This document shows positions 10,743 to 35,012 of a DNA stretch of 50,039 nucleotides, one piece after another. Under the pieces are notes generated by a model. It was not told the origin of the DNA. It searched no databases and saw nothing but the letters and a program-made list of their open reading frames with translations. Numbering within the stretch: the first letter of the stretch is position 1; the number at the start of each line of letters is the position of its first letter. The translations under genes were made by a program, and so were the position numbers. Origin of the DNA: an uncultured Pelagibacteraceae bacterium (GTDB taxonomy: Bacteria > Pseudomonadota > Alphaproteobacteria > Pelagibacterales > Pelagibacteraceae); NCBI GenBank assembly GCA_902596205.1, contig CACJSY010000008.1, positions 1-50,039 on the forward strand. Direction: 5' to 3'.

Positions 10743-11747
10743 TTAATACTTTCTATAAAAATTTATTAATTTCTCAACTTTATCCGGGTCTGTCTCAGGA
10801 AGCAAACCATGTCCAAGATTAAATACGTAAGGTGTATCATTAAATATATTCAAGTATTTTTCAGTATTTTTAATTATCTGACTTTCATTCGATAGTAAAA
10901 TTTTAGGATCTAGACCACCTTGAATCACTACGTTCTTTAAATTTTGTTTGGCCCAACTAGGGTCTATAGTATAATCCAAATTGATACCGTGCGGTTTAAC
11001 AATATCGTTGAATTTTTTGTAATTCTTTCCAATACCTTTTGGGAAACATACAACAGGTATATTATTTTCCTTACAAAAGTCGACAAGTCTTAAGTTGGGG
11101 TTAATGCAATAATTAACCAAATCTTTCTCTGGTATTAAGCCAGCCCAAGAGTCAAAAATTTGAATAACGTCCGCACCTGCTTTAATTTGGTTATCAATAT
11201 GGACACAAAGATATTCGTGTAATTTATCTATAATTTGATCGATATCAGATTTTTTTGAATTAATCTTTTCAAGATTAACATTATTTTTATCTAATTTTAC
11301 CCCATACATGTAAATTAACAAAGTCCAAGGTGCCCCTATAAAAGCTATCAAAGATTTTTTTTTATCCAATTTTTTCCTAGTTTTTCCTATAGATAAATAA
11401 ACTGGTTCTAATTTCTTGGTAAATGAAATTTTATTATTATCGAAAAATTTTTTTTTATCAAATTTTTCTAATATCGGCCCTTTATCTTTAATAAATTTTA
11501 CTTTCTGCCCAGTGGCGTGTGGCACCATAAGTATATCTGAAAAAATTATTGCTGAGTCTAAATCAAATCTTTTGATAGGTTGCAAAGTGATTTCGGAACT
11601 TAATTCACTATTTAAACAAAGTTTTATAAAATCTTGATTTTGAGATCTAATTTTTCTAAATTCTGGAAGATATCTACCAGCTTGTCTCATAAACCAAACT
11701 GATTTACAAATATTTTTATTTATTAAGATTTTTTTTAGATTACTCAT
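10743..11747 (-). CDS. hemE: Uroporphyrinogen decarboxylase
   Basis: This 334-residue TIM-barrel enzyme decarboxylates uroporphyrinogen III to coproporphyrinogen III. The N-terminal signature SVWFMRQAGRYLPEFRKIR contains the substrate-binding Arg residues. IFSDILMVPHA holds the conserved Asp, FIGAPWTLLIYM is a core block, and FNLGHGLLPETDP near the C-terminus carries the conserved His. It is the first gene of the heme operon. In Caulobacter and Rickettsia the origin lies between hemE and an RP001 homologue; the same pair flanks the AT-rich gap here. Confidence 0.97.
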   Translation of the reverse strand: MSNLKKILINKNICKSVWFMRQAGRYLPEFRKIRSQNQDFIKLCLNSELSSEITLQPIKRFDLDSAIIFSDILMVPHATGQKVKFIKDKGPILEKFDKKKFFDNNKISFTKKLEPVYLSIGKTRKKLDKKKSLIAFIGAPWTLLIYMYGVKLDKNNVNLEKINSKKSDIDQIIDKLHEYLCVHIDNQIKAGADVIQIFDSWAGLIPEKDLVNYCINPNLRLVDFCKENNIPVVCFPKGIGKNYKKFNDIVKPHGINLDYTIDPSWAKQNLKNVVIQGGLDPKILLSNESQIIKNTEKYLNIFNDTPYVFNLGHGLLPETDPDKVEKLINFYRKY

Positions 11748-12017
11748 TAAATAAATAAAGTTTATTAACTTAGTTAGTGTTGTAGGTCTTGTTAATTAGT
11801 TATATAACGATTTTTACAACTTTTATACAAGGCTAGGTTAATAAGTTTTATTGGATTTCCTCGTTTTTAAGTTTTTATTCATTTTATAAACACTAAAAAA
11901 ACATTATTATCAACATTTAACAAATTGTTTAAATATTGTTGATTATTGTTAATTATTTTTTTGAAATGCGAACAGAAATGTAAAACATGAACCTGTCAAT
12001 ATTTTATTAACATAGAT
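11748..12017. other. Candidate chromosomal replication origin (oriC)
   Basis: This 270-base non-coding gap between divergent hemE and the DUF299 (RP001-like) gene is the position of the mapped origin in Caulobacter crescentus and the proposed one in Rickettsia. It is extremely AT-rich. It holds a DnaA-box-like TTATCAACA (11907-11915, one mismatch to TTATCCACA), a weaker TTATAAACA (11884-11892), and several TGTTRATTA-type elements at 11790-11798, 11937-11945 and 11947-11955. TTATTAACA is at 12004-12012. An imperfect inverted repeat spans 11911-11941. It must also contain the promoters of both flanking operons. The origin role is inferred from synteny. Confidence 0.6.
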
Positions 12018-12836
12018 ATGAACGAAAAATACAATGTATATCTTGTGTCTGACTCTACTGGTGAAACCTTAGATAGAATATTTTTATCCCTCAAGTCACA
12101 GTTTGCAAACTTTGAGTATGAAAAAAAAGAATTTGCTTTCATAAGAACTGAACAACAGATTGATAAAATTATAAATGAGTGCAATAAAATCAACAATTCT
12201 ATTATCTTATATACTATTGTTGAAACTAAATTGGCTAAGTATTTGGCAAGTCAAAGCGAGAAAAATACCGTTCCATGTTTTGGTGTATTAGGAAATTTAA
12301 TCCTAAGCTTTTCAAAACTTTTAAATCAAAAGGCAATTCATAAACCAAGCGCTCAACACGTTTTAGATGAAGATTATTATAAGAGGATTGAAGCTATTCA
12401 GTTTACAATGACACATGATGACGGAAAAAAAGTAGACGATATTAATGAAGCAGATGTTGTTTTGTTAGGCGTAAGCAGAACAAGCAAAACACCTACCTCA
12501 ATTTATTTAGCCAATAGGGGATATAAAACTGTCAATATTCCTTTAGTGCTTGACCAAAAAATTCCTGAGGATTTGAAATCAAATCAAAACTCATGCATCA
12601 TTGGTTTAATTGCTGATCCTGAAAGGCTCTCTGATATTAGACGTAACCGAGTAGCAATAATGAAAGATCAAAATTTAAAAGAATATACTGATTTGGACTC
12701 AATCAAGAAGGAAGTTGAAGATTCAAAAAATTTGTTTAAAAAGAACAACTGGCCTATCATTGATGTAACCAGGAGATCTGTCGAAGAAACGGCTGCCTCT
12801 ATATTAAAAATTATTGAAATTAAAAAAAATAAATGA
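12018..12836 (+). CDS. Pyruvate, phosphate/water dikinase regulatory protein (DUF299, RP001 family)
   Basis: This 272-residue protein belongs to the DUF299 kinase/pyrophosphorylase family, which switches pyruvate phosphate dikinase (or PEP synthase) off by ADP-dependent phosphorylation and on by phosphate-dependent dephosphorylation. The N-terminal VYLVSDSTGETLD and the P-loop GVSRTSKTPTSIYLANRG are diagnostic. The C-terminal DVTRRSVEETA is also conserved. It is the homologue of Rickettsia RP001 and of the gene beside the Caulobacter origin. It leads an operon in which maf, aroE, coaE and dnaQ follow with short overlaps. Whether the target is PPDK or PpsA cannot be decided from this window. 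Confidence 0.93.
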   Translation: MNEKYNVYLVSDSTGETLDRIFLSLKSQFANFEYEKKEFAFIRTEQQIDKIINECNKINNSIILYTIVETKLAKYLASQSEKNTVPCFGVLGNLILSFSKLLNQKAIHKPSAQHVLDEDYYKRIEAIQFTMTHDDGKKVDDINEADVVLLGVSRTSKTPTSIYLANRGYKTVNIPLVLDQKIPEDLKSNQNSCIIGLIADPERLSDIRRNRVAIMKDQNLKEYTDLDSIKKEVEDSKNLFKKNNWPIIDVTRRSVEETAASILKIIEIKKNK

Positions 12837-32768: not shown

Positions 32769-33382
32769 TGCATGATAAAGAAGTTATAAAAACTCTTCAA
32801 AATCAGCTTAATTATAGTGCAAAAAATATATCAGACATTAAAATATTTATAAATGAATTGCTTAAAGCTAATAAAAAACATAATTTTATCTCCAAAAGCA
32901 CTGAAAACGTAATTTGGCACAGGCATATCCTTGACTCAGCTCAATTAGTAAAATTTATCGATTTTTCAAAAAGTTCTTTATCAGATTTAGGCTCTGGAGG
33001 CGGTTTTCCAGGCTTGATTTTAGCTTTATTTAACAAAAATAAGGACTTTCACGTGAAATTATATGAAAAATCACCAGTGAAAAGAGCTTTTTTAGAGCAT
33101 ATCAGTGATAAATTATCCTTAAAAATAGAAATACTTGGCAATGTTTACGAAAATTCTATTGATACAGAATACATAGTCAGTAGAGCTTTTAAGAAATTAG
33201 AAGCAGTAATACAAGTTTCACGTGAAATCGCTAAAAAGTCGCATAAATTAATAATTTTGAAAGGTCAAAACGCACAGGAAGACTTAAAAAAAGCTTTCAA
33301 TAAAGAAAAATACGATTATAAACTTGAAAACAGCATAACAAATGAAGACTCTAAAATTATTATAGTCGATTTTAAAAAATGA
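32768..33382 (+). CDS. rsmG: 16S rRNA (guanine-527-N7)-methyltransferase RsmG
   Basis: This 204-residue SAM-dependent methyltransferase modifies G527 of 16S rRNA. The SAM motif is SDLGSGGGFPGLILAL. The preceding block WHRHILDSAQLV and the later VSRAFKKLEAVI and LKGQ are typical. Two copies of the ParB-binding palindrome TTTCACGTGAAA are embedded in its coding sequence (33047-33058 and 33216-33227). The gene overlaps parA by four bases. Confidence 0.95.
   Translation: MHDKEVIKTLQNQLNYSAKNISDIKIFINELLKANKKHNFISKSTENVIWHRHILDSAQLVKFIDFSKSSLSDLGSGGGFPGLILALFNKNKDFHVKLYEKSPVKRAFLEHISDKLSLKIEILGNVYENSIDTEYIVSRAFKKLEAVIQVSREIAKKSHKLIILKGQNAQEDLKKAFNKEKYDYKLENSITNEDSKIIIVDFKK
33045..33060. other. 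parS-like centromere site 1
   Basis: ACTTTCACGTGAAATT contains the 12-bp core TTTCACGTGAAA of the bacterial parS consensus TGTTTCACGTGAAACA; the outer two bases on each side differ. It lies inside rsmG, 330 bases before parA. Confidence 0.75.
33214..33229. other. parS-like centromere site 2
   Basis: AGTTTCACGTGAAATC contains the parS core plus the G of the left outer pair. It lies 169 bases from site 1, inside rsmG and 165 bases before parA. Two exact cores in 200 bases of an AT-rich genome, beside parAB, are unlikely to be chance. Confidence 0.82.
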
Positions 33383-34164
33383 CAACGACGATTTCGGTGA
33401 TTAATCAAAAAGGTGGAGTAGGAAAAACTACAACTGTAATAAATTTAGCTGCTTCACTGTCCATTATGGGTCAAACAAATCTTGTTGTAGATTTGGACCC
33501 ACAAGGAAACGCTACAACAGGATTTGGTAAAAGTAACAGTGATGAAGATAAAAATATTTACAATTTATTAATTAAAAAAAATAATCTTGAGCACGCAATT
33601 CAAAAAACTAATATACAAAATTTAGATATCATTGGTTCACATGTAAATCTATCTGGATTAGAAGTTGAAACAGCAAACGACTCAAAAAGAGCATTTGTTT
33701 TAAAAGAAATATTATCATCAGAAAAATCAGGTTTACTTAAAAAGTATGACAACATATTTATAGATTGTCCGCCTTCATTAAGCTTACTCACAATTATGTC
33801 CTTAGTGGCTTCAGATGAGTTATTAGTTCCTTTGCAAACAGAGTTTTTTGCTTTGGAAGGAATTACACAACTTGTTAAAACTATTGATAGAATAAAAGAA
33901 AATCTTAATCCAACACTTTCAATAAGAGGAATTTTGTTAACAATGTTTGACAAAAGAAATAAGCTTTCCGCAGAAGTAGACAGGGAAGCAAGAAATTATT
34001 TTAAAGATAAAGTTTATAAAACTGTTATTCAAAGAAATGTGAGATTATCAGAAGCTCCTTCACACGGTTTACCATGTGTTATTTATGATAAAAGTTGCGT
34101 TGGAAGTAAGGCTTATTTTCAATTAGCTGAGGAATTTAAAAATAAATTAGTGAGTGCCGCATGA
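33379..34164 (+). CDS. parA: Chromosome partitioning ATPase ParA
   Basis: This 261-residue deviant Walker ATPase drives segregation of ParB-bound origins. The motif is VINQKGGVGKTTTVINLAAS with the signature Lys, then VVDLDPQGNATTGFG, FIDCPPSLSLLT, and the later RNVRLSEAPSHG that is characteristic of chromosomal ParA/Soj. It overlaps rsmG by four bases and parB by four bases. ParAB near the predicted origin (about 22 kb away) fits the usual position of the chromosomal centromere. Confidence 0.96.
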   Translation: MTTTISVINQKGGVGKTTTVINLAASLSIMGQTNLVVDLDPQGNATTGFGKSNSDEDKNIYNLLIKKNNLEHAIQKTNIQNLDIIGSHVNLSGLEVETANDSKRAFVLKEILSSEKSGLLKKYDNIFIDCPPSLSLLTIMSLVASDELLVPLQTEFFALEGITQLVKTIDRIKENLNPTLSIRGILLTMFDKRNKLSAEVDREARNYFKDKVYKTVIQRNVRLSEAPSHGLPCVIYDKSCVGSKAYFQLAEEFKNKLVSAA

Positions 34165-35012
34165 GTGGAAAAAAAAAAGGATTAGGTCGAGGTTTGTCAG
34201 CGCTTTTTGGTGATGATAAACCTAAAGAGAAACCACAAGAAATTAACCAAACAAACACTGTTTCTATTAGCGATTTGAGCCGAAATCCATACCAACCAAG
34301 ACAGCATTTTAGCGAGGAAAAACTTGAAGAATTGGCTAATTCTATAAGGAAAAACGGCATTATCCAGCCGATAGCAGTAAGAGAGAGTAAATCTCAATCT
34401 GGAAAGTATGAAATCGTTGCTGGAGAGAGAAGATGGTTAGCAGCTCAAAGAGCTGGGTTACATGAAATACCCGTGACTGTTTTGGATTTAACTGATGTGG
34501 AGTCTTTAGAGGTTGCCATTGTAGAAAATATACAGAGAGATGATTTAAATCCGATAGAAGAAGCCAGAGGTTATAAGAGACTTAATGAAGAATTTAATTA
34601 CGACCACGATAGCATTTCAAAACTGATGTCAAAAAGCAGAAGTCATATAAGTAATACTTTAAGGCTATTAACTTTACCTAGCGATGTTATTGCTATGCTA
34701 GAAGAGGGGACATTATCATCTGGTCAGGCCAGACCTCTCATCGGTATAAGTAACGCTTCATCTATAGCAGAGGAAATTGTTTCAAAAAATTATAGTGCTA
34801 GAAAGGTTGAGTATTTAACTAGAAATAAAAAAGGATCTAACAAAGAAAAGGTTGTTGACGCAAATATTCTTAAAGCTCAGGAAAGAATTGAAAAAATATT
34901 AGGTTTAAAAGTTAATATTTTAAATAAAAAAAATAATTCTGGCAAAATAACAATTGAGTATAAAGATCTTGAGCAATTTGAGCTTGTTTCTGAACTTTTA
35001 ACTAAGCATTAG
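34161..35012 (+). CDS. parB: Chromosome partitioning protein ParB
   Basis: This 283-residue CTPase/DNA-binding protein loads at parS. The N-terminal KKGLGRGLSALFG is the ParA-contacting peptide. RNPYQPRQHF and GEIVAGERRW-like sequence (IVAGERRWLAAQRAGL) form the CTP-binding ParB/Sulfiredoxin fold. VAIVENIQRDDLNPIEEA follows, and the helix-turn-helix covers SISKLMSKSRSHISNTLRLL. The C-terminal dimerisation region is present. Its target sites are probably the two palindromes in rsmG. It ends inside the holA stop region with an 11-base convergent overlap. Confidence 0.96.
   Translation: MSGKKKGLGRGLSALFGDDKPKEKPQEINQTNTVSISDLSRNPYQPRQHFSEEKLEELANSIRKNGIIQPIAVRESKSQSGKYEIVAGERRWLAAQRAGLHEIPVTVLDLTDVESLEVAIVENIQRDDLNPIEEARGYKRLNEEFNYDHDSISKLMSKSRSHISNTLRLLTLPSDVIAMLEEGTLSSGQARPLIGISNASSIAEEIVSKNYSARKVEYLTRNKKGSNKEKVVDANILKAQERIEKILGLKVNILNKKNNSGKITIEYKDLEQFELVSELLTKH

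Follow-up and report, generated by a model that had tools for sequence, protein, structure and literature searches.

Where does chromosome replication start in SAR11 bacteria, and which sequence would carry that start? The question is raised here by the intergenic region between hemE and the RP001/DUF299 gene of an uncultured member of the Pelagibacteraceae, which an earlier note had predicted to be the replication origin, oriC. The window, that is, the whole stretch of DNA analysed (50,039 nucleotides), spans contig C8 from end to end; the genome, of 988 kb, comprises 20 contigs and is 82.65% complete. The gap at 11748–12017 separates the divergent genes hemE (10743–11747, minus strand, PF01208) and RP001, a DUF299 kinase-pyrophosphorylase (PPPase; 12018–12836, plus strand, PF03618), and these family matches agree to the base with the boundaries that the earlier note had drawn. 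Ferrochelatase lies beyond hemE, Maf, shikimate dehydrogenase, CoaE and an exonuclease lie beyond RP001 in the window, and the Rfam search at gathering thresholds returned one tRNA. According to the available part of one study, the origins of Caulobacter and Rickettsia are located between hemE and COG1806, with DnaA, CtrA and IHF sites (PMC1914354). For SAR11 or Pelagibacter, this location was not stated as the origin in the excerpts of the literature found, among the matches listed; the oriC of HTCC1062 was "manually identified" according to a figure legend, the part of that source available, which gives no position for it (PMC4033161), and a SAR11 origin prediction is likely to be present in some origin database. 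Judging from the sequence, we believe that the hemE–RP001 gap is very probably the oriC of this SAR11 bacterium, with weak cooperative boxes and an unwinding unit. This applies to the statement as a whole; our confidence is higher for the location alone, and lower for the unwinding unit and for the tuned weakness of the boxes. Two points, the apparently shifted boxes and the trio-like unit at the hemE end, go beyond the first reading.

The AT content of the gap is 79.6%, but the word "extreme" used for it in the earlier note is too strong because 1.85% of the 270-bp stretches of the contig equal or exceed this value; compared with the contig rather than the whole genome, the gap is above average (upper 1.85%), as in a Cori-type origin. 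The divergent hemE and COG1806/RP001 flanks of such an origin are present in the window, and they are conserved in the family. The RP001 search gave matches in 97 of 118 family genomes, and 50 of those 97 loci were examined: the window (L002), the best-scoring loci (L003–L031), and loci picked by hand for complete genomes and other genera (L032–L051). Divergent hemE and RP001 genes with a gap of 261–286 bp were found in 48 of the 50, window included. Across the class, 80 genomes were matched (two of them the window's genome and G009) and 28 loci from other families were counted; hemE was adjacent in 27 of them, and the box and trio counts for the class use these 27 loci, with L171 dropped for having no hemE. 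Family gaps share descent, so counts across gaps are not independent. The 48-gap counts below leave out the two gaps of genus g9, whereas the counts of register, ranking, base 6 and terminal box use all 50.

The two exceptions to the synteny, G009 and G022 (L040 and L042, both of genus g9), carry rho beside a gap of approximately 350 bp. In G009, hemE, hemH and the UPF0093 gene (presumably hemJ) had no one-to-one match within 80 kb. The hemE family search of seven g9 genomes gave one match each, which in G009 and G022 lay far from RP001. Though hemE is elsewhere, both gaps keep the TTAGG..TGTTTATAA unit and the terminal TTATAAACA before RP001; if the region had been nothing but a hemE promoter, they would be unlikely to persist there. 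The hemE matches of G009 and G022 score lower (1.2e-55 and 1.7e-56) than those of G026 and G005 (3.5e-83 and 1.5e-88), which suggests that hemE was replaced by a distant copy in these two genomes. Such a low score was seen in six of the seven g9 genomes; the match in G066 was 1.8e-89. The ferrochelatase beside hemE also varies: its match to that of the window is 27–29% in L034, L036, L044, L047 and L049, where it was possibly replaced in place, and 71–95% in the other matched loci, and none was matched in L048, in L040 and L042, or in six loci that have little sequence at this place.

Six DnaA-box-like nonamers of the form TWATNAACA are located within the 270 bp of the window gap, and of the 17 TWATN[AC]ACA sites of the 50-kb contig, 6 lie within it. 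Starting from hemE, TGTTAATTA (11790–11798, minus strand) adjoins the trio-like triplets described below, and a conserved TTATACA (11823–11829, plus strand), seen in the alignment of 19 same-genus gaps, may be a weak box. These are followed by TTATAAACA (11884–11892, plus strand), by TTATCAACA (11907–11915, plus strand), and by TGTTTAAAT (11926–11934, minus strand), a putative weak box 11 bp before the next one. The remaining sites are TGTTGATTA (11937–11945, minus strand), a second TGTTAATTA 10 bp further on (11947–11955, minus strand), and TTATTAACA (12004–12012, plus strand) just 5' of the RP001 start, a terminal box that is common in relatives. The pattern TTATNAACA occurs three times (11884, 11907 and 12004), a number reached in 0 of 100 dinucleotide shuffles. 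The repeated TGTTRATTA elements that had been pointed out in the earlier note held up well, with three copies (11790, 11937 and 11947) against a shuffle mean of 0.1 and none of 100 shuffles reaching that number. Its inverted repeat was also recovered (11906–11915 and 11937–11946, 90% complementary), as the facing pair TTATCAACA/TGTTGATTA. The one-mismatch DnaA box that it had cited, TTATCAACA, is present, but sites within one mismatch number 12 in the contig, where 14.8 are expected; because a lone box of this kind is at chance level, we rejected it as evidence of an origin. The canonical TTATNCACA, searched as the strict pattern, does not occur in the window gap, and a box cluster like that of a Cori-type origin is found there only when the box is widened to TTATN[AC]ACA.

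In 48 family gaps, TTATNAACA was found 85 times against 6.6 (sd 2.5) in dinucleotide shuffles and TTATNCACA 21 times against 1.5. Among the intergenic regions of 60 bp or more in the 50–160 kb read per genome, the gap ranked first for TTATN[AC]ACA in each of six genomes, which represent five genera. The two patterns differ at base 6, which is A in TTATNAACA and C in TTATNCACA, and in the 50 SAR11 gaps they occur 91 and 21 times, respectively. Genus g1 has 39 A and 2 C, and genus g2 is mixed (13 A and 10 C); some canonical boxes are kept in other SAR11 genera (10 of 23 in g2 and 8 of 28 in g4), which would show the box shift half-way. The 27 gaps of other families have 4 A against 14 C. The closest named relatives identified with the RP001 protein were Pelagibacteraceae single cells, 'Candidatus Pelagibacter ubique HIMB058' and MAGs, which places the window in SAR11, and we also counted 65 further gaps of such relatives. 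For these, the best 80 of 120 loci were kept, from which 2 lacking hemE in the stretch and 13 repeating an earlier gap were removed. These gaps contained 152 TTATNAACA and 0 TTATNCACA. The guess in the earlier note that SAR11 may use degenerate boxes is supported, base 6 being predominantly A rather than C in both sets of gaps.

Canonical and shifted boxes share positions in different genera. For example, the trio-side box is the canonical TGTGAATAA (that is, TTATTCACA) in five loci, L034, L035, L036, L044 and L045 (some of the g4 gaps), where others carry TGTTAATTA, and before RP001 L028 carries TTATCCACA where others carry TTATTAACA. Because of these shared positions, we identified the shifted sites as DnaA boxes. 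A terminal box TWATN[AC]ACA was found in the last 25 nt of 32 of the 50 gaps and 54 of the 65 further gaps, the pattern being absent from 18 of the 50. The shifted sites with A at base 6 are presumably weaker than canonical boxes. When domain IV of the window genome's DnaA was aligned to that of E. coli (1j1v, whose residue numbering we assume), RRSR, SLPEIG and RDHTT were in common, and RRSR and RDHTT were kept in 20 of 20 SAR11 DnaA proteins, with variation at other positions of the domain. Since both motifs are kept, they offer no explanation of the box shift. In the accessible part of a published study, Arg399 and helix 434–451 are assigned to DnaA recognition (PMC5742627).

At the hemE end of the gap, the first box is preceded by a unit that resembles a DnaA-trio element. 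In the window, it consists of the triplets TAG-TTA-GTG-TTG-TAG (11771–11785, plus strand), in a register common to the 50 gaps, and the 4-nt spacer GTCT (11786–11789, plus strand), whose first base (position −4 relative to the box) is G in 76% of the 50 gaps. Beyond the triplets, the 5' end of hemE and the left end of the gap form a candidate duplex-unwinding stretch (11708–11782). By duplex stability calculated from nearest-neighbour energies, the 40-bp segments with starts at 11708 and 11728 rank within the weakest 0.7% of the contig, and the next two, from 11748 and 11768, stand out less (8% and 17%). The gaps were anchored on the first box only, and the anchor never looks at the triplets. 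A three-base rhythm was seen 5' of this box, with T at −7, −10, −16 and −19 in 88–96% of the 50 gaps and A at −6, −9 and −18 in 68–88%; −13 is weak (54% T). These base frequencies, from −4 to −19, include four visibly misplaced rows (L010, L039, L043 and L050), after which the anchor range was narrowed and a TGT bonus was added before the register count; L010 and L050 then landed properly, and L039 and L043, which still look misplaced, were retained in that count. In the shared register, 154 of 250 triplets were TAN, and the largest value of 300 shuffles, each at its best register, was 89. The window's own copy has TAN in 2 of 5. The 65 further gaps averaged 2.58 of 5 in register against 0.31 and 0.28 in the other registers.

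Several results stand against such an element. The strict trio rule (three consecutive NAN from the 4-nt spacer) is followed in 9 of the 50 gaps, and at least three consecutive NAN trios within 16 bp of the box, in any register, are found in 25 of the 50 family gaps; the window's copy follows neither rule. An unanchored scan for TA[AGT] runs gave no excess in the 50 SAR11 gaps (3.78 against 3.66). One study describes, in the part of the text available, an unwinding system with trios, a short spacer and a box in this order (PMC8287927). The SAR11 gap is like the DnaA-trio/BUS of Bacillus subtilis and others in having a box, a 4-nt spacer, TA-starting triplets in fixed register and an AT-rich stretch beyond, but its triplets are degenerate. 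Because the strict rule does not hold in the window and the unanchored scan was null, we likened the SAR11 unit to a DnaA-trio system and did not file it as one. T[ATG]G runs on the same strand exceeded the shuffles in the 27 gaps from other families: the mean best of six was 3.37, the largest mean among 40 shuffles 2.63, and the value on the reverse strand 2.19. Anchoring the class gaps on GGGGAT misplaced many of them, and these placements were left out of the counts. By eye, many gaps among L152–L179 show an AT-rich stretch, TAG/TTG triplets, a GC patch, TGTGAAT and CGGGGATTA. There may be a class-wide unit in L152–L179 that deserves a model of its own.

The window gap contains no CtrA site of the form TTAA-N7-TTAA and no IHF site of the form WATCAANNNNTTR, which we take to be the IHF consensus, and control of this gap by CtrA or IHF was rejected since no consensus site is there. 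Across the 48 gaps, TTAA-N7-TTAA was found 42 times in 18 gaps against 21.6 in shuffles (largest shuffle 38), and TTAA-N7-TTAAC 17 times in 14 gaps against 2.6; this excess is likely to result from overlap with boxes that end in TTAACA. The IHF pattern gave 12 sites in 11 of the 48 gaps against 3.6 expected. GANTC was rarer than in shuffles (4 in 2 of the 48 family gaps, 16.9 expected). Compared with E. coli oriC, the SAR11 gap is alike in its box array beside an AT-rich element and in the DnaA motifs RRSR, SLPEIG and RDHTT; the window gap differs in having no TTATNCACA box, and the flanking genes presumably differ from hemE and RP001. Caulobacter crescentus Cori and the related Rickettsia origin are closer, as far as the available parts of two sources describe them, with the same flanking genes, several weak DnaA sites and an AT-rich stretch (PMC1914354, PMC4468827). 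The window gap differs from Cori in having no CtrA or IHF consensus site, and it is shorter than the origins named in the excerpt of PMC1914354, which exceed 400 bp. Caulobacter has its own weak G- and W-boxes, in the accessible text of PMC4468827, and weak boxes are therefore a theme of the class; the G-boxes carry a T-to-G change, whereas SAR11 boxes differ at base 6 (A). A ctrA orthologue has been reported missing in Pelagibacter (PMC2877005, in part), and SAR11 is named, in ambiguous wording, as an exception to CcrM conservation in the available passage of PMC3973325.

On the chromosome scale, dnaA lies 61–86 kb from the gap and is read away from it in all 16 genomes where one contig carries both; these are 16 of 19 matched genomes, the three others having dnaA on another contig. 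Nine of the 16 (seven g4 genomes, G040 of g12 and G016 of g3) have it on the hemE side, and seven (g1, g2, g5, g9 and G048 of g12) have it on the RP001 side. Relative to G044, G026 is inverted from approximately −4 to +15 kb and G040 from approximately −21 to +31 kb, and in the compared stretches the order of the remaining one-to-one ORF matches is unchanged. Because both inversions span the gap, dnaA switches sides in these two genomes. Inversions that span the origin are of a kind that bacteria tolerate.

The complete relatives G026 and G005 were read as 20 evenly spaced 20-kb samples each, at a spacing of 58–65 kb that cannot alone separate the gap from dnaA. Mean GC skew in these samples is −0.06 to the hemE side of the gap and +0.05 to +0.06 to the RP001 side. 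Third-position skew and coding-strand share also reverse around the gap, and single samples deviate from the trend (e.g., −0.107 at +393 kb in G026). In contiguous stretches of 120–160 kb from G026, G005, G040, G009 and G044, the cumulative GC minima were at +28, −18, −32, −19 and +42 kb from the gap, and none was at dnaA. The keto minima were at −66 kb in G026 (−65.6, with dnaA at −64.6), −20 in G005, −80 in G040, +79 in G009 and +78 in G044, the last three at or near the edge of the stretch and those of G009 and G044 also near dnaA. For the window itself, which is short, GC and purine skew both have their minimum at the left edge. Skew thus supports the neighbourhood of the gap, not a base pair, and resolves to some tens of kb; we rejected cumulative skew for fine mapping of the origin, its minima being scattered (18–42 kb off for GC). 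The purine minima lie consistently on the hemE side in all five genomes (−33, −30, −34, −31 and −28 kb in the same order), even in the two with inverted flanks.

The partition genes were also placed. The earlier note had put parAB with parS about 21 kb away, and parA (33379–34164, plus strand, PF13614) and parB (34161–35012, plus strand, PF02195, PF17762 and PF23552) were indeed found. Its parS stood in part: the inner 14 bp of the parS consensus, as we assume it, is matched on the plus strand 21 kb from the gap by CTTTCACGTGAAAT (33046–33059, two mismatches) and GTTTCACGTGAAAT (33215–33228, one mismatch), but the 16-bp consensus has no match there with at most two mismatches. Four more inner sites have three mismatches, giving 6 in the window against 2.07 expected, and the window parS takes the variant form TTTCACGTGAAAT. 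With at most one mismatch, parS was present in 12 of 15 genomes, in all 12 at 7.4–19.5 kb from the gap; the canonical 16-mer was found at that threshold in none of the other three, which are the window's genome, G044 and G015 (two of g1, one of g2).

Could the gap be only a divergent promoter or regulatory region, with replication starting near dnaA, 61–86 kb off? In favour of this explanation, the promoters of both hemE and RP001 must fit in the gap, and dnaA marks the origin in many bacteria. The elements that remain in G009 and G022 with hemE elsewhere stand against it. Of the skews, the keto minimum favours dnaA in G026, and by its closeness in G044 and G009 (in these two also near the stretch edge), against GC minima that all lie 18–42 kb from the gap. 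In the five stretches that include dnaA, the intergenic regions next to it (60 bp or longer) contained no TTATN[AC]ACA; the 403-bp region upstream of dnaA in G026 is an example. For this absence and for the variable side of dnaA (9 against 7 of 16 genomes, two explained by inversions), we rejected an origin at dnaA, even though the keto skew speaks for it, and we consider it very improbable.

It is very improbable, in our view, that the origin lies nearby but elsewhere and that the gap is an auxiliary DnaA-binding site. Such an arrangement would agree with a skew that resolves to tens of kb, with purine minima clustered 28–34 kb on the hemE side, and with the extent of the smaller inversion (approximately −4 to +15 kb), both inversion midpoints being near +5 kb; yet no other intergenic region (at least 60 bp, in the stretches searched of six genomes) matched the box number of the gap, and the synteny with the mapped Caulobacter origin, as given in the part of PMC1914354 available, also argues against it. 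A further explanation, which we regard as improbable, takes the TTATNAACA sites as leftovers of AT-rich drift rather than DnaA boxes, with the true control elsewhere in the gap. The family is AT-rich and genus g2 is mixed (10 C and 13 A), but the excess of TTATNAACA over dinucleotide shuffles (85 against 6.6) is not shared by the control TTATNNAAA (41 against 50.4 shuffled in the 48 gaps). Base 6 in the five class gaps below 42% GC is A in 4 and C in 9 boxes; the very AT-rich L168, of another family, has two TTATNAACA and no TTATNCACA, as drift would have it, against nine TTATNCACA and two TTATNAACA in the other four. The reading of the gap as oriC is supported by the box ranking, the parS distance, the gap-spanning inversions and the elements kept in G009 and G022.

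From the sequence, we inferred how such an oriC would work. DnaA would bind the boxes cooperatively, and A in place of C at base 6 would make each of them weak. Starting at the 11790 box, the filament would grow toward hemE along the strand with the TAG/TAN triplets; the AT-rich stretch would then open, the helicase would be loaded, and forks would run both ways. With no CtrA site in the window gap, initiation would therefore be set mainly by the DnaA level and box affinity. We also put forward tentatively, leaning slightly against it, that SAR11 has a shifted DnaA-box alphabet and that its whole origin stands on uniformly weakened, cooperative boxes, an affinity-tuned system without CtrA that would fit slow, unsynchronised growth.

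Few cell types in the sea are as abundant as SAR11 bacteria. Their replication has been estimated from origin-to-terminus read depth, according to the excerpt of one study, in which the coverage for SAR11 is V-shaped with a single origin and no position at the level of genes is given (PMC9589681), and one method, as its available text describes, uses dnaA as the origin marker (PMC7852909). An origin predicted at the sequence level would provide a fixed anchor for read-depth methods, the dnaA marker being 61–86 kb off in 16 genomes. The gap also offers candidate sites for how a cell reported to be without CtrA times its replication, and the shift from C to A in the boxes without a matching change in the DnaA motifs poses a clean question of protein–DNA recognition. 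If true, the box shift would mean an affinity-tuned origin that lacks CtrA, the master regulator of the class.
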